Source: a virus. From it: a DNA stretch of 21,647 nt. The position numbers and the translations under genes were made by a program. Within the stretch, counting starts at the first letter, position 1, and every line of letters begins with the position of its first letter. A model generated the notes under the pieces. It had not been told where the DNA came from. It did not search any database and saw only the letters and a program-made list of their open reading frames with translations. Location of the stretch: positions 1 through 21,647 of IMG/VR virus record IMGVR_UViG_3300022602_000476, one strand, 5' to 3'. Below, piece after piece: positions 2,886 to 20,288 of this stretch.

Positions 2886-3763
2886 AAATTTTCTATTTGC
2901 TCGTGTATCCACATGTCTTTATCGAATTGATCTAACCAAAATTCATAATTATCAACATTGTCAATGGCATTTTGGATCATACTTTTGTAAGCATCTTCTG
3001 GACACCACCCTAATTCAAATATTTCTGTAGTGTCGTCTGGCATTGTAAATTCAATAGCACTTTTTTCATACAAATTACTGCGCCAAGAAGATATACATTT
3101 CCATTTTGGATGAAAGAAAATATTGCAAACATCATCTACATCATAGATACCGTTAGGATTAACTGTGCCGTACTCCGTAGTTTTTATATCTTCTAATCTC
3201 CATACTTGTGTTTTTAAATGTCCACTCATTGGAAGTCTACGCCAATCGGGATTCATGGCAATATATAAACTTAATAAGTGAGGCATAAGATCACGACTAA
3301 CACCCCCATATGCTAATTTTTTTGTAGTAAACCAACTGCCTGGGTTTGGAATACAATTCTTCCTGGTCCACTCTATATTCACTGATTTTGCTTTATCGGC
3401 AAGTTTTTTTAGATCAGAAATATTACTACGCCACATATTATTTTTAATCATCATAAAACGTGTCTGCGAAAAGGTTTCTACTAATTTTTTCCAACTAAAA
3501 CTGTCAGCTACTCCAGGCTTTTCGATAAAAACTATTTTAGACACCGATGCTGCCTTAGCCGCAAGTTCAAAATGTGTAAAATTAGGAGTACAAATATGTG
3601 CTGTATCAAATGAGCTATTTGCTATAATTGCTGAATCGATAGTAGTAAAATCTGCATCTTTTTTTGGATCGCTATCGACCGTAATAATTTTGTGACCAAG
3701 ATCAGTAAGTACTTTGGCGTATAGATTACCGATACCCATTCCGACGATTAGACTAGTTTTCAT
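2882..3763 (-). CDS. Gfo/Idh/MocA-family NAD(P)-dependent oxidoreductase
   Basis: A 293-aa protein. The N-terminal Rossmann fold shows LIVGMGIGNLYAKVL (residues 5-19), an acidic residue after the second strand (TVDSD), TPNFTHFELA (59-68) and the family signature EKP at 81-83. The C-terminal domain has GGVSRDLMPH (154-163), where the family normally carries the catalytic Asp/His pair (here D159 and H163). Members oxidise or reduce sugars, inositols or biliverdin-type substrates. It is somewhat short but complete. The start lies inside the previous gene (11-base overlap) and its stop forms ATGA with the MDR gene, so the two dehydrogenases are probably made in step. In phages such genes are usually taken as sugar-modifying auxiliary functions; the substrate is not readable. 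Confidence 0.85.
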   Translation of the reverse strand: MKTSLIVGMGIGNLYAKVLTDLGHKIITVDSDPKKDADFTTIDSAIIANSSFDTAHICTPNFTHFELAAKAASVSKIVFIEKPGVADSFSWKKLVETFSQTRFMMIKNNMWRSNISDLKKLADKAKSVNIEWTRKNCIPNPGSWFTTKKLAYGGVSRDLMPHLLSLYIAMNPDWRRLPMSGHLKTQVWRLEDIKTTEYGTVNPNGIYDVDDVCNIFFHPKWKCISSWRSNLYEKSAIEFTMPDDTTEIFELGWCPEDAYKSMIQNAIDNVDNYEFWLDQFDKDMWIHEQIENL

Positions 3764-4013
3764 TTGTAAACTTCTTTCCTTCTTCCCAATACTTAATCAT
3801 ACGACTAACATCTTCCATTCTTTCTTGTATAATCTCAGGAGCTGCACGTTCTAATTCTTTTAGATTATGATAACTAGGATAATGACGCAAACATCGACCG
3901 GCTTCTTCCCGTATTTTTTTTGAAATACGCGGAGTCTTTTTTGGATTCAAAAGACTTTCTAAAAACTCTTCGGTTCTTTGTATACTTCTAAATCTTTCGT
4001 CAGGTAATGTCAT
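3753..4013 (-). CDS. BPSL0761-like small protein, 86 aa
   Basis: An 86-aa helical protein starting MTLPDERFRSIQRTEEFL and containing REEAGRCLRHYPSYHNL. The N-terminal M-T-x-P-D-E-R followed by a helix and then 'xxLRHYPS' matches the pattern I recall for the BPSL0761 family, a group of small bacterial proteins of unknown function. The C-terminal half is a charged helix (ELERAAPEIIQERMEDVSRMIKYW). The ATG directly abuts the dpdA-like stop (TAA-ATG, no gap), so translation probably depends on readthrough by the same ribosomes. Its stop lies 11 bases inside the next gene. The function is unknown; position right after DpdA makes an accessory role conceivable but unsupported. Confidence 0.65.
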   Translation of the reverse strand: MTLPDERFRSIQRTEEFLESLLNPKKTPRISKKIREEAGRCLRHYPSYHNLKELERAAPEIIQERMEDVSRMIKYWEEGKKFTNEN

Positions 4014-5642
4014 TTAGAACTCAAATAGTGAATTGTTTAATATAGGTTTTGTTGGCTCTTTTACAATTTCGTCTATTGTTAAATTGCCTTCAAATTCAAT
4101 GTGGGCATCTGCAATAGGTCTTGTTTCTTCTTTAACAATTTTCTCCATTGTTAAATTGCCTTCGAATTCGATATGTTTATCTGCATAAGTAGATGCATTA
4201 ACAGTATTCTTGCCAATGTATCCTCTAGTACCAGGAATATCTTTCCAGTAGGAATCGTATTCTTCTACTAATGCGTCGGCTCGACCACGATCACTAGTTT
4301 CAAATATAGCATTAACAATATCTTTAAAATACATATAATCATATTGTTTTACTACTTTAGTATTTGCATCGGCAACACTTAGCATAGCAGGTTTTAATCC
4401 AGCATCATACTGTCGATTAGCCTCTTGCACACTATTAATATGCATCCAAACATTATGACCCATCATAATTGCGTAAGTGAAGCTATCCCATGAAGTCTTT
4501 CCAATTTTACCAATTTTATTAACATCATTAGGGCCATAGATACATATTTCATTTATTTTAACACCATCCATTAATGGGCTTGTTGTAAAAGAAGTAAAAT
4601 GACCATCTTGCACTATTGCATCTTGGAAGAGTCTTGTGTCTTGTGAATATTTTTTGTCATCAATAGACGGCAACATTCTGTAGAGCCACTTTTCTCTATC
4701 TTTGATTTCTGTTTGGACATAGATTTGTCCGTTTGCTGTTGCAAGGAACGGTGAGGCGCAATCAAAAGATATGGTAAAGTTTTCATTATGATATTTCCTT
4801 ATTGCACGTTGAACATCTGTGAGCAAAAGTGCCCACTCTAATTTACTGGTGCCTAAAAAGTGCATCCAATCCTGTTGACCTTTTTCAAGTAAACCATCAA
4901 ATCGAAGTGCTACTAATCTCTGTAACATCAAGTGTACATCACACATATTCTGTCCACCCATACCCCAACCGTTAAAATGACGGCCTGGATATTGTTTTGG
5001 ATCACAATATTTCTTCATGTGCTGATACCATCCTTCAGCATCTGCATGATTTTCACCTTGCAATACATTTAAGAACTTACAATTACCATTACGATTGTTT
5101 ATAAAATATTCGTTGTTGATAAATGTGGCCTGTACTGCTTCAGTATAGCTAGTAATACCTGTTGCTTTTTGACCGGCAGGACTACGAGCTACCCACGCAG
5201 GTACATCTAGGCCCATGCCATAGTCCATAAGTGAATCCATCCATTTAAGTACTTGCTCTCGTTTTTTCTGAGCTTTGGGACAATTAGGATCTTTCCAGTC
5301 ACCTTCCCACTTGCCTTTACCAATTTGGAATCCACCTGAATCGCCTAATACCCAAGATGTTGCTCTGTTTCTATTACGAAACATATCTTCGCCTTCATCC
5401 AGTTTATTAAGATCTAGATTAGCATGTCCTGCACTATATAAACAATGGTCATAATAGAATGCTGCATTAGGATCTAGATAATTCATGGCTTCGATGCCCA
5501 TAGGTCCGAAGCTGGCAGGTATTCGTGCAGGATCTACATAATTAGAAAATCGTTGTTTGCCTATGTAGGTGCTATAAAATCCTGACGTTGCCGGCAGGAA
5601 ATATGCATAGTCTTTTTGAGCTGATGTTAAATCTCGAATCAT
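4014..5642 (-). CDS. dpdA: DpdA-like DNA guanine transglycosylase (TGT fold) with clamp-binding-like C-terminal tail
   Basis: A 542-aa protein with the tRNA-guanine transglycosylase active-site layout: GDSGGFQIGKG (D101), GLDVPAW (D146), NVLQG (Q195), GWGMGGQ (G229 and G230), HFLGTSKLEW and SFDCASPF (D294). These parallel Zymomonas TGT residues D102, D156, Q203, G230 and the nucleophile D280. The TGT zinc motif CxCx2C is not visible, which fits phage DpdA better than a tRNA enzyme. DpdA family members replace guanine in DNA with 7-deazaguanine derivatives and protect phage DNA from restriction. The last 53 residues are two copies of a 24-aa repeat followed by SLFEF, almost the same tail as the phage DNA polymerase (TLFEF). 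The gene starts at a TAATG overlap with the sliding-clamp gene. The family call is strong; DNA rather than tRNA as substrate is inferred. Confidence 0.85.
   Translation of the reverse strand: MIRDLTSAQKDYAYFLPATSGFYSTYIGKQRFSNYVDPARIPASFGPMGIEAMNYLDPNAAFYYDHCLYSAGHANLDLNKLDEGEDMFRNRNRATSWVLGDSGGFQIGKGKWEGDWKDPNCPKAQKKREQVLKWMDSLMDYGMGLDVPAWVARSPAGQKATGITSYTEAVQATFINNEYFINNRNGNCKFLNVLQGENHADAEGWYQHMKKYCDPKQYPGRHFNGWGMGGQNMCDVHLMLQRLVALRFDGLLEKGQQDWMHFLGTSKLEWALLLTDVQRAIRKYHNENFTISFDCASPFLATANGQIYVQTEIKDREKWLYRMLPSIDDKKYSQDTRLFQDAIVQDGHFTSFTTSPLMDGVKINEICIYGPNDVNKIGKIGKTSWDSFTYAIMMGHNVWMHINSVQEANRQYDAGLKPAMLSVADANTKVVKQYDYMYFKDIVNAIFETSDRGRADALVEEYDSYWKDIPGTRGYIGKNTVNASTYADKHIEFEGNLTMEKIVKEETRPIADAHIEFEGNLTIDEIVKEPTKPILNNSLFEF
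4032..4175 (-). repeat. Tandem 72-bp in-frame repeat (2 copies) in the dpdA tail
   Basis: Two adjacent 72-base units, 4104-4175 and 4032-4103, encode residues 490-513 and 514-537 of the DpdA-like protein. Both begin HIEFEGNLT and contain IVKE-x-T-x-PI. The units are identical at 16 of 24 residues and remain in frame. They are preceded by ADK and ADA, which extends the similarity slightly upstream. The repeat sits between the catalytic domain and the terminal SLFEF. Confidence 0.9.
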
Positions 5643-6373
5643 TACTTACTTTGAGCTGGAAGAATGTATTCGTACACAGCTATACCGCTATCAACTGTGA
5701 TATTTAATGCGCCTGCATCTGCAATACGCATAGTTTTGTCACCGGTTAAATTTAAAATACTTTGAACAGATGCTACAGGCCATGACCAAGATTGTTTCAA
5801 TTTACCACTTACCCCGCTTTGAAATACAAAATTTCCTGCATGGGTACTTGCATCGCCAAAACTAAACACTAAATTTCCATCTTTAGTTGTTACTTGGAAA
5901 TTAGATTCTTCTGTGTGTATAGCACTTTGAAATTTAAATCTTTGAATACTAGCCATATTAGGTTCAAATTCAATATCCCAGTTAGCACCTTTAAACTTAA
6001 CACTTTTTAATTTTTCATTAATAATATCTTGATTCATAAAACGATAATCGTTTTCAAAATCCTGATTACCATTTTGGAAGTGTAATCCTGTAGGAATTTC
6101 CTCGCCGTTACGGTCTTGTTTTACTACATTGATAGTAAAGTTTTCTTTATATTCCGGGCATTTTAATAGGATATCTAATTTGTTAAGATTAGGCATACCG
6201 AATGTACCTTCGAAATCGTCAACTGATTCTTTTGTCTTAGCATTAAGAATAACGCTACGATCTTCAGCCATACTTTCTATTGAAATTTCTTTCTTTGATG
6301 CAGAAACTTTTACTAACGGTAAAAATCCCAAACTGTGTGTATGTGCTACTAGGTCTTGTAAAAAGTCTTTCAT
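5642..6373 (-). CDS. 45: Sliding clamp (T4 gp45-like DNA polymerase accessory protein)
   Basis: A 243-aa, strand-rich protein close to the T4 gp45 length (228 aa). DDFEGTFGMPNLNKLDILL (about 52-70) resembles the gp45 segment 'FDVAIYDLNGFLGIL'. The C-terminal strand ITVDSGIAVYEYILPAQ resembles the last strands of gp45. A trimer of such proteins encircles DNA, tethers the polymerase and, in T4, also activates late transcription. The start follows AAAGGA (about 6382-6387) at good spacing behind a near-consensus promoter. The stop overlaps the dpdA-like ATG by one base (TAATG). Its sequence is clearly diverged from T4, so the call leans on overall pattern and context with gp43. A structure prediction showing two clamp folds would confirm it. 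Confidence 0.75.
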   Translation of the reverse strand: MKDFLQDLVAHTHSLGFLPLVKVSASKKEISIESMAEDRSVILNAKTKESVDDFEGTFGMPNLNKLDILLKCPEYKENFTINVVKQDRNGEEIPTGLHFQNGNQDFENDYRFMNQDIINEKLKSVKFKGANWDIEFEPNMASIQRFKFQSAIHTEESNFQVTTKDGNLVFSFGDASTHAGNFVFQSGVSGKLKQSWSWPVASVQSILNLTGDKTMRIADAGALNITVDSGIAVYEYILPAQSK

Positions 6374-6394
6374 GATAATATTCCTTTATAGTTG

Positions 6395-6423
6395 ATTGTA
6401 CTTGGATTTTTTGACATTGTCAA
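6395..6423 (-). promoter_or_regulatory. Sigma70-type promoter for the clamp-dpdA operon, with a dyad over the -35
   Basis: Read on the minus strand, TTGACA (6423-6418) and TACAAT (6400-6395) are separated by 17 bases. This is a perfect -35 and a five-of-six -10 at optimal spacing. It lies just before the ribosome binding site and ATG of the sliding-clamp gene. The -35 overlaps the stop codon of the nucleotide-sugar dehydrogenase gene. The 13 bases at 6423-6411 (TTGACAATGTCAA) form a perfect dyad around a single central base and could be an operator. Confidence 0.75.
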
Positions 6424-7190
6424 GGGGTTTTTCTTATTTTCTTATTGTATTTTATTGCCGATTCTAAAATACTCATATTTGTATTTAGGCGGTCACTGTA
6501 ATGAGTAAATGCTTTTGTGTCTTTAGGAAAGCATGCTCCTCCGAATCCGCGACTACCATCTGGACCTGGCACTTGCATATGACTGACTCCTATGCGCTGA
6601 TCATAAGCTAACACTTGTTTAACTGTGTCATAATCTATGCCGTTAGATTGGCATAGGTCATACAATTGATTAAAAAATGCCACTTTAAGGCTTAAAAAAC
6701 AATTAGTAGTATATTTTACCATACTAGCTTCACCCACGCTTGTTTCTAAGTATGCTTCACATTTGGGTAACGAATCTTGAAAAACTTCCTTCCAAAAAAT
6801 AAAGTTATCGCCACCGATTACCATATAAGTTTGATTTTTAAAGTCGTCATTCGCTGTTACCGCTCTTAGGAATTCCGGACTATAACTTATATCATTATAA
6901 GGATGCTCTTCGATTAATTTTTCCAAGTAATCTGGCGGAACGGTGCATTTAATTAATATTGGTATATCATAAGGCGCATCGTCCAGCACAGTCTTCAGCT
7001 GACTTATATCGCAATCGCCATCGTCACTACTAGGAGTTCCTACACATACAATCATACAGTCTGCGTGACTGTATCGACTCACTGTATGATTGTTGTATTT
7101 AGGATCAACGATATACAATTCATTTTTATCTTTTAATGAGTTTGCTACAGCCTTTCCTACAAACCCATATCCTGCAATTATAATATTCAT
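6420..7190 (-). CDS. Short nucleotide-sugar dehydrogenase (UDP-glucose/GDP-mannose dehydrogenase family)
   Basis: A 256-aa protein that oxidises the C6 hydroxyl of a nucleotide sugar if it acts like its family. Visible motifs are GYGFVG (7-12), CVGTP (49-53), SPEFLRAVTANDDF (104-117), VKYTTNCFLSLKVAFFNQL (158-176, with the conserved Lys and Asn) and GFGGACFPKD (215-224) with the catalytic Cys C220. Typical members are about 400-450 aa. Here the C-terminal UDP-binding domain is missing, and the protein ends soon after the central dimerisation helix. The ATG at 7190-7188 lies one base after the polymerase stop and fits the first Rossmann strand (MNIIIAGYGF). An upstream in-frame TTG at 7202 is less likely. 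The active site is intact, so it looks like a minimal form, not a broken gene. Confidence 0.85.
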   Translation of the reverse strand: MNIIIAGYGFVGKAVANSLKDKNELYIVDPKYNNHTVSRYSHADCMIVCVGTPSSDDGDCDISQLKTVLDDAPYDIPILIKCTVPPDYLEKLIEEHPYNDISYSPEFLRAVTANDDFKNQTYMVIGGDNFIFWKEVFQDSLPKCEAYLETSVGEASMVKYTTNCFLSLKVAFFNQLYDLCQSNGIDYDTVKQVLAYDQRIGVSHMQVPGPDGSRGFGGACFPKDTKAFTHYSDRLNTNMSILESAIKYNKKIRKTP

Positions 7191-7191
7191 A

Positions 7192-9861
7192 TCAAAACTC
7201 AAATAATGTGTTAAAAGTATTTTTTTCTTCGGTACTATTGATATCCCAATTTAATACACCAATTAAATTGTCTAGTTTGTTATTAATAATAGTTTGTTCC
7301 ATTTCAGCATGATCAAAGGGTAAATCTTTGAACCACTGTGGTAATCTCAGTTCATCTACAGGATAAGCAACTGATGTAAAACCTAACGGATTAGGTTTAA
7401 GTTTACAGACGATGACTTTAGCACCATCTGTAATAGACATTGAATACTTGTCATTGTACATTCTTTTTAAAGTATTCCAATTAATACTGGCTCTGACATG
7501 CCCAGGCATGTTTGCTTTGCCAATTTTTTTCTCTTTTTCTTGATAATCTGTAATGTTATTAGCTCTTTTAGGCGAACCTTTTTCCCATCCAGGACGACCT
7601 TTGAATTTTATTCGAAATTCACTAATCATGTCTAAAACAGTTTGCTCGTCTTTTCCCATTAATACCATTTCAAGAACATCACTTAAAAAGTTTTGAATGA
7701 ATTCAGGAGTATCGCTACGCTTAAGATCCAACCCCATAGCTTTAATTTTGCCAGGTTTTCCATCTACATCAGTTCTTTTTCCTTCTTTATCGTAGTATAA
7801 TACAGCATATCGTTTCTTAGTAATGAATAAACTTTTACTACCGACGATTTCACGGCCAGCCTTTATGACTTCACCACGGCTTTTTGGACAATGAAACTGA
7901 TCTAACATAAATTGCGGAAATGTAGTATTAACTTCATCGCCGATCTGATCATACAATTGTATTACTGTTTCTTTCGTCCAAGGAATTCGCCCTGCTTCGA
8001 TGTCTTTCTGTAAAGTGCGATAAGCACTAAAATAACAACTATCGGTATCACCGTATATGACTGCTTTACCTCTATGGTCATACTCGCCGGCAATAATCTC
8101 ATTTACTTTACCGGCCATGTGTTTGACAATCTGACGACCTGTTAGTGTTGTTGATTGTCCAATCCGCTTATCAAAGAACCTACAACCACTGTTAAGAATA
8201 GCACCATACAAACTATTCAAGTTAATCTTCTTAACCAGTTGTCGTTTGTCCCAGTATTCTTCTTCGACTTTGTTGCCTGCTTTAATAGCATCTTTTAGTT
8301 TAGCCTGCATTTCTTTACGCTCGGCATACCAGCGTTTTAGTAGACCTGGAATAATACCTTCTTTTTCGTGTGTAAAGATAGTACCATTAGCACTAATCAT
8401 CCAAGGTTGATTGCTTTCGAAAATAAGTCTGTATACTTCTGCCGCACTTAATATATCAGTTTCTCCATTTTCCCAATCAATAGTGATATCTGTACCAATC
8501 TCTTGGTTCATAACTGCTTCGTATTCTAAACTGCCGAATATGCCTTCCCACGCAGCCGCAAATGATTTGCCTTTTGCCATCTGTAGTTCAATGTATTCTT
8601 CAGTTTTTGTCTGACGCATTTGGCCTATAATAGTTTCTGGACCCATGTTAAGTGCTCTAATTGCACTGGGATAAAGTGAATTAATATCTAACGACCCGAT
8701 CCAATCGTGAATTCCATCTTTAGGGACTGCAACATACGCACCTGCGGCCGCAGTATTCTCTTCGCGATCATCTTTTTTAATACGATTAGGAACTTGAAAT
8801 CCTCTCCGATGTGCTTCGTTAATAATAGCCTGTTCTGTTACCGCTACCGCACCCATCGTAGTTTGTAGTAATACTGTGTTTTCATGTGCCAATGTATTGG
8901 CAAGATCCATAAATTTTAATTTCTTATCCAAATCATCGAGTAGTTTACAGTCATTAATATTATATTCTACAAATGTACGGAAATCATTGTTGTATAATTG
9001 GTCTAATGTACCTTCGTACTGTGTTTTACGTTGTCCTAATTCATGTTCTGCAATAGCGTCCAACCGATAGCTATGTCTTTCTTCATATGTATATTTGCGA
9101 TATAATTCAAGATAATCCAAATGCACACGACCTATATAATCATAAGTTGTACTGGTCCTGCCATATTTTTCATACTCTCGTTTTTTTGGCAATTGATCAA
9201 ACAGACAGAATCTACGAGTATCTTCTTTGCTTAATGCTTTGATTACACGATTAGTTGTATAAGGTACATCAAATCCTTCTGAGTTCCACCCACTGATAAC
9301 ATCGGCATCTTGTATAAGATCTAAGAACATACTTAACAATTCACCTTCATTGTCAAACAAGTAAGTATTAGGAAAATCTTTAACCATTTCTTTGGCATCT
9401 TCCATGCTAACACCTTTAGGCGGAATAGCCATACACACCATAGTTTCCATCCATTGTAGGTAGACAGCAATCGCAGTAATTGGCATAAATGCATCGTCTG
9501 GACTTGCATAACCACGCTCTGGATCAAAGTCTACCTCAATATCGAAAAATGCTACATTTAGTTTAGGAGCATCTTGATTTAAGTAGTGTTCACTTAGTGT
9601 TACAAAAATTGGATTAATATCTGACTCGTAAAGAGTTTTACCACTATTAATGGCCTGTTCCTTACGCAGTTCTTTAGTGTTTTTACAAACAATACGGGTA
9701 AGAGGATCCCCGTAAATTGATTGGAATTTGCCCTTAGGGTCTTTTACATAGAATGTGTGTTTTACAGGAATATCGCGAAACTCACGCTCACCTTTCTTGT
9801 TGCGTTCAACTACTCGAACAATATCGTTCTCTCTATCAAACCAGGCGTCTACATAGCTCAT
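7192..9861 (-). CDS. 43: Family B replicative DNA polymerase (T4 gp43-like)
   Basis: An 889-aa protein, nearly the length of T4 gp43 (898 aa). The 3'-5' exonuclease motifs are FFDIEVD (D107, E109), SGWNSEGFDVPY (D198) and YNINDCKLLDD (Y300, D304). The polymerase motifs are motif A SLDINSLYPSAIR (D392), motif B VKKINLNSLYGA (543-554) and motif C IYGDTDSCYF (D605, D607), followed by TKKRYA. All catalytic residues are present, so it should be proofreading-competent. The C-terminus NTLFEF resembles the C-terminal peptide with which RB69/T4 gp43 bind the sliding clamp (ending DMFDF). It is preceded by a 70-base leader with a GGAG ribosome binding site (9872-9869) and a predicted stem structure. 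Confidence 0.98.
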   Translation of the reverse strand: MSYVDAWFDRENDIVRVVERNKKGEREFRDIPVKHTFYVKDPKGKFQSIYGDPLTRIVCKNTKELRKEQAINSGKTLYESDINPIFVTLSEHYLNQDAPKLNVAFFDIEVDFDPERGYASPDDAFMPITAIAVYLQWMETMVCMAIPPKGVSMEDAKEMVKDFPNTYLFDNEGELLSMFLDLIQDADVISGWNSEGFDVPYTTNRVIKALSKEDTRRFCLFDQLPKKREYEKYGRTSTTYDYIGRVHLDYLELYRKYTYEERHSYRLDAIAEHELGQRKTQYEGTLDQLYNNDFRTFVEYNINDCKLLDDLDKKLKFMDLANTLAHENTVLLQTTMGAVAVTEQAIINEAHRRGFQVPNRIKKDDREENTAAAGAYVAVPKDGIHDWIGSLDINSLYPSAIRALNMGPETIIGQMRQTKTEEYIELQMAKGKSFAAAWEGIFGSLEYEAVMNQEIGTDITIDWENGETDILSAAEVYRLIFESNQPWMISANGTIFTHEKEGIIPGLLKRWYAERKEMQAKLKDAIKAGNKVEEEYWDKRQLVKKINLNSLYGAILNSGCRFFDKRIGQSTTLTGRQIVKHMAGKVNEIIAGEYDHRGKAVIYGDTDSCYFSAYRTLQKDIEAGRIPWTKETVIQLYDQIGDEVNTTFPQFMLDQFHCPKSRGEVIKAGREIVGSKSLFITKKRYAVLYYDKEGKRTDVDGKPGKIKAMGLDLKRSDTPEFIQNFLSDVLEMVLMGKDEQTVLDMISEFRIKFKGRPGWEKGSPKRANNITDYQEKEKKIGKANMPGHVRASINWNTLKRMYNDKYSMSITDGAKVIVCKLKPNPLGFTSVAYPVDELRLPQWFKDLPFDHAEMEQTIINNKLDNLIGVLNWDINSTEEKNTFNTLFEF

Positions 9862-17985: not shown

Positions 17986-18198
17986 TTATTTTCCTACAGG
18001 TTTTTCACCAGTTAAGTAAGGTTTGCTAAACCATAATTGAAACCACTCGGGTGTTCCTGGTTGTATATTGTGTTCACGCATCAACTTAGCTTTTTCTGTA
18101 CCAGTAACACTGATATTAATTCCGTCTAGCTCGTATGGTTGTAGGCCTTTAAATTCATTAACGCCTGCTAACTTTTTAAGACGAGCTAGATCATCCAT
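17986..18198 (-). CDS. Small hypothetical protein, 70 aa
   Basis: A 70-aa protein starting MDDLARLKKLAGVNEF, a short amphipathic helix, then a compact domain with YELDGINISVTGTEKAKLMR and GTPEWFQLWFSKPY. No known family is recognised. The ATG overlaps the Dps stop as TAATG and the stop is one base before the next ATG, whose ribosome binding site lies within this gene. The Arg/Lys/Leu-rich first 13 residues look like the starts of other proteins in this module and could be a targeting or scaffold-binding segment. That is inference. Confidence 0.75.
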   Translation of the reverse strand: MDDLARLKKLAGVNEFKGLQPYELDGINISVTGTEKAKLMREHNIQPGTPEWFQLWFSKPYLTGEKPVGK

Positions 18199-18635
18199 TA
18201 TTTTAAACTCGCTCTTAACATCCAGCTGTGCTTTTTATGTGCATCCTGGCGATCTGCTAGAAAATTACTTAGTCCATGATCACCGTGTTGTTCGGCCATG
18301 TCAAATGTAATACGGAATATATTGGCCATTCGTTCACTGTCTGCTAGTAATTCTTGAAGCATGCTGCTCCAATCTGGAACGGCATTTTCATCCTCGACTG
18401 TAGTTAACATGCTAAATTTTTGTAAACTAGCTGGTGTATAAATTTGCAATGCACGAAGATGTTCAGCAAATGTATCAATGCTACCATAGACTTCTGTGTA
18501 AATTCTTTCAAATAGTTCATGCAATTGACCAAACAGTGGACCTTCGACATTCCAATGAAAATTATGTGCCTTTAGATAAAAACTAAATTCGCTAGCAAAA
18601 GCTGTTTTGAGTGATAAATGGTATTTTTCGTCCAT
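18198..18635 (-). CDS. dps: Dps-family miniferritin (DNA protection / iron oxidation)
   Basis: A 145-aa protein with the Dps signature HNFHWNVEGPLFGQLHELFE. Ferroxidase ligands H27, H39, D54 and E58 have the same spacing as H51, H63, D78 and E82 of E. coli Dps. E43 takes the place of D67. Family members form 12-subunit shells that oxidise and store iron and shield DNA from Fenton chemistry. The E. coli Lys-rich N-terminal DNA-binding tail is absent: the protein starts MDEKYHLSLKTAF. DNA binding is therefore uncertain, while iron oxidation is likely. It sits between virion-type genes (one base after the 125-aa gene, TAATG with the 70-aa gene). This suggests late expression and possibly packaging in the particle. 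Confidence 0.88.
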   Translation of the reverse strand: MDEKYHLSLKTAFASEFSFYLKAHNFHWNVEGPLFGQLHELFERIYTEVYGSIDTFAEHLRALQIYTPASLQKFSMLTTVEDENAVPDWSSMLQELLADSERMANIFRITFDMAEQHGDHGLSNFLADRQDAHKKHSWMLRASLK

Positions 18636-18636
18636 T

Positions 18637-19014
18637 TTATATTCCGTGTTTATTCTTAGGATGTTTGGCTACAGGACTTATTTTATGTGTGTCGTCGGGT
18701 TCTTGACTTTTTTTCCAAGGTAACACTTCGTGATCTTCTGTAGGAATTACTTTTCTGGCATCTTTAAACATATTATGTTCTACTTCGGTATATGGGTGTT
18801 GTGTCCAGTAAGGACCCATCCAACTTTCATGATCTATATTAGCGGGTGTTTTACCAGATCCGTCCATCATACCGACTACGATACCAGTACGCATCTGATG
18901 ATAGCTAGGATAATAGCCACCAGGATCCCTAGAACGTCGAATACCCTGATGCACAGCCGCATGATGGTCGTGATGCTTGCCAGTATGTTCAGTAATAAAT
19001 TCTTTTGCTCTCAT
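18637..19014 (-). CDS. Small virion-type protein with MRA(K/Q)EF start and ISPVA tail, 125 aa
   Basis: A 125-aa His-rich protein (KHHDHHAAVHQGIRR) with an aromatic/Gly middle (GYYPSYHQMRTGIVVGMMDG), HPYTEVEH and the tail ISPVAKHPKNKHGI. The start MRAKEFI and this tail mirror the last 132 residues of the preceding 424-aa protein (MRAQEFI ... ISPVATIKKNKYGI). The two also share a central 'Y/F-G-M-M/A' segment and a 'D/P-x-x-T-E/D' helix start. The two are probably paralogous modules. The ATG overlaps the previous stop (TAATG). FITE near residue 9 fits an I-x-E prohead-protease-type site. Function unknown. Confidence 0.75.
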   Translation of the reverse strand: MRAKEFITEHTGKHHDHHAAVHQGIRRSRDPGGYYPSYHQMRTGIVVGMMDGSGKTPANIDHESWMGPYWTQHPYTEVEHNMFKDARKVIPTEDHEVLPWKKSQEPDDTHKISPVAKHPKNKHGI

Positions 19015-20288
19015 TATATGCCGTATTTGTTTTTCTTTATTGTTGCTACAGGACTAATAGTATTTGCACCATCTGCTTCATTACTAGTACCGTCTGAAAT
19101 ATGTGTGATAGCACCTGCGCCAACAGATTTAGCAGCATCTTCTATTTTTTTCAATTCTGCATCGGTGTATGCTGTAATTAATGGATCACCACTCATAGCA
19201 CCTGCTCGGGGCATATCAGGGTTAGCCATAGCCATGCCAAAACGATATTGCATATATGGACTACCGTTAGCTTTGTTCATACTAATGTTAGGAATACTCA
19301 TGGCATTTTTTAATGCTTGAATATGCACATGATGCAATTCTTCTGCGCCTTTTCCAGCATAAGGAACATCGCCTTCTGCTAGTTGTTTGCGTATAAATTC
19401 TTGTGCTCTCATCTCTCTTATTACCTTATTAGCATATTTAACCGAATTTTCATCAGATCTGGTATATACTTGTTGCGCCTTTTTATCTCCTGTTCCTCTT
19501 TCTATTTGGTCTGGTTCTTTAGCTTTTTCTTTTTCAAACCATTTACGCATTTCTTCGGAGCTTGGAGTTGTTTTCTTTTTTACAGGTTTTTCAACTTTTC
19601 CTAATAATCCCATGAGACTTTCATCGGCTACTTTTTCTTTCTTAGCTTTCTTCGGCTTATCATATGACTTCATACGCTGTTCAGCCTTATGCATTAGATC
19701 CATCACTTCATCATCACTGAGTTCAGGACTCATAGCATCGCGCCATGCTGCGAACTTTTCTTCGTCTGTTGCATTGGGATCCATTAGTATGGCTCGCATA
19801 GGAGTAGCACGGGGACCTTCTTCACTTCTACTAGGATCGTTAGTTGCTTGACGAGCAATAACGTTTAAACTGTTAAAATTAAACGGAATTTCACCAGACT
19901 TATTAGGTTTACCGTTGTAATTTTTAACATAACTTAGTGCGTTTACCTGATCTGCACCTACGACAACTGTAACATCAGTATAGCCATGCGCACTTAACTT
20001 CTGCAACACTCGAGTTAAATCGGGCATGTCATCTGTAGCTGTATGAAAAATATGCCCATGCCTAGGAAATACTCGTTTATAAATCGCTAACTTTTCATCA
20101 GGTGTGATTGGATCATCTTTGCCTACGGTACGACTAACAACAAAATATGGATCAGCACCGTGATCTTTAGCCTGCGTAATAACACTACTGGCCAGCATCA
20201 TATGACCTTTATGACCCATACCGCGGCCCCATCCTACAACTGCTGCTTTACTTTCTCCAGTACGATTTAAAAATTCCCGTAATAACAT
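19014..20288 (-). CDS. HxGH nucleotidyltransferase-like protein with fused virion-type C-terminal module
   Basis: A 424-aa protein. Residues 15-210 look like a cytidylyltransferase/NMNAT-fold domain: AVVGWGRGMGHKGHMML with HKGH at 26-29, then VTVVVGADQVNALSY and GPRATPMRAIL (158-167), resembling the S/T-x-x-x-R motif of the family. The middle (210-290) is Lys/Glu-rich linker. Residues 293-424 (from MRAQEFI to KKNKYGI) form a module paralogous to the next gene's protein. Family enzymes transfer a nucleotide to a phosphorylated substrate, for example in NAD or sugar-nucleotide synthesis. The HxGH site appears intact, but the substrate is unknown. It starts at a TAATG overlap with the ligase-like gene. 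Confidence 0.72.
   Translation of the reverse strand: MLLREFLNRTGESKAAVVGWGRGMGHKGHMMLASSVITQAKDHGADPYFVVSRTVGKDDPITPDEKLAIYKRVFPRHGHIFHTATDDMPDLTRVLQKLSAHGYTDVTVVVGADQVNALSYVKNYNGKPNKSGEIPFNFNSLNVIARQATNDPSRSEEGPRATPMRAILMDPNATDEEKFAAWRDAMSPELSDDEVMDLMHKAEQRMKSYDKPKKAKKEKVADESLMGLLGKVEKPVKKKTTPSSEEMRKWFEKEKAKEPDQIERGTGDKKAQQVYTRSDENSVKYANKVIREMRAQEFIRKQLAEGDVPYAGKGAEELHHVHIQALKNAMSIPNISMNKANGSPYMQYRFGMAMANPDMPRAGAMSGDPLITAYTDAELKKIEDAAKSVGAGAITHISDGTSNEADGANTISPVATIKKNKYGI

Follow-up and report, generated by a model that had tools for sequence, protein, structure and literature searches.

In this study, we analysed a viral DNA stretch of 21,647 nt (IMG/VR record IMGVR_UViG_3300022602_000476; the whole stretch is referred to as the window) together with its relatives, and found that a predicted DpdA-like guanine-exchange enzyme and the replicative DNA polymerase of the same phage share a short C-terminal ending, in a gene block that also encodes a predicted PCNA-fold sliding clamp. 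The explanation we favour, and which as a whole we consider likely, is a DpdA2-related transglycosylase that is tethered to the clamp via its tail and modifies newly made duplex.

Gene order and the two LFEF endings

The features of the block are as follows:

4014..5642, minus strand: predicted DpdA-like (DpdA2-related) TGT-fold guanine-exchange enzyme, 542 aa (AF2 model, fold matches, hhalign)
4017..4040, minus strand: putative sliding-clamp-binding motif LNNSLFEF at the extreme C-terminus of DpdA
4017..4220, minus strand: predicted disordered C-terminal tail, DpdA residues 475–542
4041..4184, minus strand: tandemly duplicated 24-aa linker unit (ADxHIEFEGNLT...), DpdA residues 487–534
4761..4763, minus strand: D294 in ISFDCAS, candidate catalytic nucleophile Asp of DpdA
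5340..5342, minus strand: D101 in invariant GDSGGFQ, candidate catalytic Asp of DpdA
5642..6373, minus strand: predicted PCNA/gp45-fold sliding clamp, 243 aa, phrog_12062 (AF2 model, PDB fold matches)
6420..7202, minus strand: UDP-glucose dehydrogenase-like gene between the polymerase and clamp genes
7192..9861, minus strand: family-B replicative DNA polymerase, 889 aa (PF00136/PF03104; phrog_262, E 3.7e-198)
7195..7212, minus strand: polymerase C-terminal NTLFEF, equivalent of the gp43 clamp-binding tail, read directly

The DpdA ORF ends ...PILNNSLFEF* and the polymerase ORF ...KNTFNTLFEF*. The first-pass annotation had limited this ending to the two proteins and had placed dpdA directly after the clamp gene with a TAATG junction. 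Both statements were confirmed, since the clamp and dpdA ORFs overlap in this way and no other ORF of the window ends in LFEF, a count whose scope is the 21.6-kb record from which alone the virus is known. The polymerase with its gp43-like tail sits two genes from the clamp gene, and its homologues in related loci end in NTFN[SK]LF[ED]F-like tails. The UDP-glucose dehydrogenase-like gene is missing from the polymerase–clamp gap in many relatives (e.g. L012, L020). Just downstream of dpdA, an 86-aa protein (3753–4013, minus strand) that gave no family match is conserved in many relatives, L005 and L007 among them, while the ORFs at 18198–18635 and 19014–20288 (minus strand) appear by eye to encode a Dps/ferritin-like (KAHNFHWNVEG) and a nucleotidyltransferase-like protein.

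The clamp ORF had no Pfam match, and phrog_12062 is a PHROG of unknown function. Its AF2 model (39 family members; pLDDT 91.8, pTM 0.88) gave 490 PDB fold matches with E below 1e-3, the strongest at 8e-11, and the best 50 of the 490 were all PCNA-type clamps. The clamp homologue of Vibrio phage 2.275.O additionally matches phrog_223, DNA polymerase processivity factor (E 6.7e-5). As modelled, the ORF is a PCNA-fold, two-domain sliding clamp with a predicted ring and processivity role.

For the 542-aa ORF, neither Pfam, PHROGs nor PADLOC returned a match to DpdA, and phmmer against the PDB found none. The TGT fold proposed earlier for this ORF was nevertheless borne out by fold comparison of its AF2 model (pLDDT 71.9, pTM 0.74): all of the top 9 PDB matches are TGTs (best E 1.1e-5), and the viral-model matches include a Motura transglycosylase and R9TGF0, a 464-residue nt-1 protein that we infer to be the nt-1 DpdA2. 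The family profile aligned with KVP40.0122, the DpdA2 candidate within the KVP40 preQ0 gene cluster, across the DSGG and SFD regions (hhalign, 88.9%, E 2.4e-6), whereas hhalign against the DpdA of phage 9g gave a probability of only 0.4–3% and no detectable profile link. Taken together, the TGT fold, the link to KVP40.0122 and the absent link to 9g DpdA lead us to assign the ORF, on profiles and models, to the DpdA2-related enzymes and not to the 9g type. The contexts of D101 and D294 are invariant in two family alignments (A1, A4), and the D294 region is also aligned in DpdA2 by hhalign; a catalytic role is predicted for both residues. GDSGGFQ around D101 matches the DSGGFQ signature of TGTs.

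The last 68 residues (475–542) have pLDDT values below 50 in the model, so that the tail bearing SLFEF at its very end is predicted to be disordered. HIEFEGNLT occurs twice in the linker, starting at residues 490 and 514. The 24-aa duplication lies just before the putative clamp motif and is absent from the relatives listed, and on account of this absence it probably represents a recent linker expansion. The catalytic domain of the 2.275.O DpdA (L083:5905-7695) is interrupted by an insert, about 80 residues long and highly charged (EPKEVAKPEKLSE...).

It is very unlikely, in our estimation, that the enzyme is a tRNA-type TGT or has some activity other than DNA modification, with its clamp tail serving an unrelated role. 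Such an enzyme would be compatible with the missing Pfam and PHROG matches, with the absence of a CxCxxC zinc signature from the protein and with the scarcity of QueC, which we found in only 2 of 20 records of the jumbo group, one of them weak. Against it stand the profile link to DpdA2, whose phage nt-1 contains dPreQ0 in its DNA (PMC6884629), the position of the 2.275.O homologue in a QueF/YhhQ/QueC/FolE cluster, and the description of a deazaguanine synthesis and incorporation system in phage PA5oct (PMC7824862). When the jumbo-phage relatives were searched for a full preQ0 pathway, 12 of 18 records encoded FolE and 12 of 20 QueD, with QueE-like genes in 54 loci; the scarcity of QueC would be compatible with a pathway that draws on a precursor upstream of preQ0, or with QueC supplied by the host. 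Directly after the PA5oct dpdA, a gene that by eye encodes a GT-B-like glycosyltransferase (L082:7626-8687, QCG76198.1) has relatives in 110 fetched loci and might decorate the inserted base.

Conservation and mobility of the tail motif

We read the relatives in 80 near and more than 80 more distant IMG/VR loci. Single-sequence IMG/VR scans with the 2.275.O and PA5oct DpdA returned nothing, and a mixed profile then gave the distant loci. In 159 of 163 related loci, dpdA is preceded on its own strand by the clamp gene at a distance of at most 1.4 kb; in two of the four exceptions the match falls within 250 bases of the contig or locus end. Motif statistics were obtained on the last 75 residues of 72 non-redundant DpdA representatives (85% identity) with 1,000 shuffles. 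[LF]F[DE] occurred in 53 of the 72 tails against a shuffle mean of 12.0 (maximum 22), and the stricter [FLM]xx[LF]F[DES] in 40 against 2.6 (maximum 9). The first-pass annotation had held that homologues next to the clamp without the motif would refute recruitment; examined for this, all 72 representatives retain it in at least a degenerate form, although this loose pattern is permissive, and most in a clear form. A few members have degraded motifs (KLMIV in L236, NQHFYE in L266). Bacterial controls, namely plasmid-borne DpdA relatives, gave weak partial matches only.

The position of the motif varies. In some relatives a variable linker leads to a terminal motif (SLFEF, NLFDE, SLFEL); in others the motif is internal and directly follows the conserved domain (MFANLFDEV..., NTFNNLFDLEE...), with a hypervariable acidic end beyond. 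Mapped onto a catalytic-domain tree from which the tails were left out, the terminal and internal states are best explained by 10 changes, at least 6 of which are forced by well supported branches. Such retention despite a shifting position is the hallmark of short linear binding motifs. The tail moreover has the traits of a T4-type SCBM, that is, a short hydrophobic-acidic motif shared with the cognate polymerase and carried on a flexible, hypervariable linker.

The likeness to the cognate polymerase extends to distant relatives. The DpdA of 2.275.O, about 28% identical to that of the window, ends NNNDLFGW and its polymerase NNTDLFDW, and these are the sole such ORF ends among 480 ORFs in 349 kb. 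The PA5oct polymerase ends DSLFGW, and SFNSLFDVD lies close to the end of the DpdA of this phage. In the related loci L196 and L197, both DpdA (NEFFEF*) and polymerase end in FFEF, and over 59 pairs the F-for-L variant co-occurs in the two tails (Fisher p 7e-4). We considered this L/F covariation as proof of coevolution and rejected it, since it comprises only two independent contrasts and is not significant given the phylogeny.

Similar endings were seen on other proteins. In the 167-kb record of L086, the sole LFDF-type ORF end beyond those of polymerase and DpdA belongs to what looks by eye like an FkbM-type methyltransferase (G001:21314-22360, ending NKFESLFDFG), a possible further clamp client. 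Sinorhizobium phage Phosso (PV764938.1) encodes a glycosyltransferase-like protein ending QLSDLFDFG (223052–223924) and a 167-aa protein ending NDLFDFG (153391–153894), and both ends resemble the Phosso polymerase tail NDLFTF.

Coincidence or low-complexity drift, by which a short hydrophobic end would be kept by chance in close relatives, is a reading we disfavour as extremely improbable. It gains some room from the shortness of the motif and from loose patterns that match every sequence, but the shuffle controls lie far below the observed counts, and polymerase and DpdA are nearly the sole matches in whole-record ORF-end scans. We also see only a small chance that the motif docks elsewhere, for instance at a DpdA dimer contact, the clamp loader or the polymerase, and merely resembles a clamp motif. 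TGT enzymes do act as dimers (PMC6884629); yet the tail of the window DpdA is predicted to be disordered, the motif shifts within the tail over 6–10 changes, and in 2.275.O, the most divergent member, it matches the tail variant of the cognate polymerase. Recruitment of DpdA to the sliding clamp, as the first-pass annotation had proposed, is in contrast well supported at the sequence level by the conserved motif, the clamp and TGT folds and the disordered tail.

The 9g-type DpdAs and other subfamilies

Phage 9g, intended as a negative control for the tail motif, gave the opposite result and supplied an independent further case. Its dpdA adjoins clamp and polymerase genes, and its DpdA ends RLQDLFDE. 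LF motif ends were present in all 14 of the 9g-type isolate genomes (RVQELF, RIQELF, DQPELF, EQMELF and others), among which the residues preceding the motif diverge, and all 78 complete DpdAs from 80 further IMG/VR contigs end in QELF, RELF, QDLF or occasionally ELY, which again argues against coincidence. The clamp gene lies downstream of dpdA in each of these 78 cases. The 9g-type clamps are beta-type (phrog_947, DNA polymerase processivity factor). For transposases that bind the beta clamp, a C-terminal Q-L-x-L-F consensus has been described (PMC4549789), which the 9g-type ends resemble. All of them have L4–F5, with LY as a rare substitute, and the residue two positions ahead of L is in most cases Q, R or M, though Q1–L2 is rarely exact. 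The polymerases of the 9g type lack the tail seen on DpdA, and the clamp reading for this group is therefore drawn from motif consensus and neighbourhood. In the 9g-type DpdA, only a short distance separates LF from the folded domain, which makes a structural role in place of clamp contact conceivable here.

Beyond this group, the DpdA of Streptococcus phage Dp-1 ends RQRRLF, with DnaN three genes away, and that of Edwardsiella phage ZHS ends KQSLW. None of five parB-linked actinophage DpdAs has an LF-type tail motif, and the phiFN37 tail is ambiguous. The DpdA2 of the T4-like phage KVP40 has no terminal motif, and the 18.7 kb around its gene contain no annotated clamp gene.

A clamp-tethering model and its precedents

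Of the elements of the model, the identical tails, the disorder, the clamp and TGT folds, the gene order and the conservation of the motif come from our computations, and we infer docking, timing with replication and the identity of the inserted base. We propose that a DpdA2-related DNA transglycosylase, which would swap guanine for a 7-deazaguanine base, consists of a folded catalytic domain (residues ~1–474), a flexible linker and the LNNSLFEF motif, and that this motif would dock in the hydrophobic clamp pocket that also receives NTLFEF, the tail of the polymerase. Since a clamp trimer has several sites, DpdA could share the clamp with the polymerase or follow it. Held by its tail, by analogy with T4, its catalytic domain would be free to reach the duplex behind the polymerase, and newly made duplex would be modified before host nucleases act. 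From its sequence features, we regard tethering of the window DpdA to the clamp that the phage itself encodes as very likely. If DpdA is tethered, it is reasonably probable that modification takes place at the fork or immediately behind it, and guanine exchange would then follow the replication fork.

T4 provides the closest precedents. The first-pass annotation had given DMFDF as the ending of both RB69 and T4 gp43; RB69 polymerase does end in DMFDF, but T4 gp43 ends ...ASLDFLFG, and T4 gp55 ends ...SLDFLYEAND. In T4, gp43, gp55 and gp33 all bind gp45 through C-termini that can be exchanged for one another and sit on divergent linkers, and a gp55–gp33 fusion with an internal clamp motif still works (PMC2988020). 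These clients thus resemble DpdA in their short hydrophobic-acidic C-terminal motif, in the variable flexible linker and in the tolerance of an internal position; they comprise polymerase and non-polymerase proteins, whereas the client here would be a DNA base-exchange enzyme. T4 alpha-glucosyltransferase binds gp45 according to Sommer 2004, as cited in PMC13216743, and was pulled down with gp45 (PMC13216743). It is, similarly, a phage DNA-hypermodifying enzyme on the phage's own PCNA-type clamp that is proposed to act with replication, but it transfers glucose onto hmC instead of exchanging a base, and it ends ...QFDIITK without an SCBM-like tail, which points to another clamp contact. The motif was absent from the tails of T4 beta-GT, Dam and alpha-GT.

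Among DpdAs, the nt-1/KVP40 DpdA2 (PMC6884629) has a related TGT-fold catalytic domain, with the KVP40 enzyme lacking the terminal LF motif. The 9g DpdA (PMC6884629) likewise has its gene beside clamp and polymerase genes and an LF end, but differs in subfamily, in its beta-type clamp and in its QELF-type motif. The beta-clamp-binding transposases (PMC4549789) also recruit a DNA enzyme to a clamp by a C-terminal tail, but to the host clamp and for transposition instead of modification.

Clamp binding without modification at the fork, with DpdA loading onto late or completed DNA via leftover clamps, or with the contact serving processivity or storage and modification being bulk and post-replicative, is in our view unlikely. 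T4 clamps double as tracking platforms in late transcription (PMC2988020), and for T4 alpha-GT expression, and not clamp binding, is the main determinant of its share of modification (PMC13216743). Furthermore, phages with a tail-less DpdA reach high modification: Rosebush DNA contains 96,530 dPreQ0 per 10^6 nt (PMC6884629), and its relative Ares encodes a DpdA without such a tail. Against this, almost every relative has its dpdA within the polymerase–clamp block, an arrangement that suggests expression together with the replisome but falls short of proof. Heavy modification is thus possible without a clamp tail, and because of the Rosebush level and the T4 alpha-GT result the tail may tune timing or targeting instead of being essential.

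For the broader reading, that clamp docking is a general design rule, with exchange replication-coupled where dpdA adjoins the clamp and other DpdAs finding DNA otherwise, we see the chances as evenly balanced. Under this rule, each motif would fit its clamp, PCNA/gp45-type in the jumbo myophages and beta-type in the 9g-like siphophages, and deazaguanine exchange would be coupled to replication as is maintenance methylation by DNMT1–PCNA, another clamp-recruited DNA modification.

The first-pass annotation had supposed clamp-tethered deazaguanine insertion to be undescribed. Our literature search found no paper connecting DpdA with a sliding clamp, and to this extent the claim stands; clamp-recruited DNA modification is, however, already known in kind from T4 alpha-GT and gp45. 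What appears new is that a base-exchange enzyme carries a putative clamp-docking motif, and that such a motif is conserved in two DpdA subfamilies whose clamps are of two types. Such a tail would give a concrete answer to how phage DpdA finds phage DNA. DpdA replaces up to ~30% of guanines, and the tail may explain how this is fast enough to beat host nucleases. It would add base exchange to the "tool-belt" clients of the T4 clamp, which comprise polymerase, late transcription and alpha-glucosylation, and would link two unrelated clamp types to one solution for DpdA recruitment.
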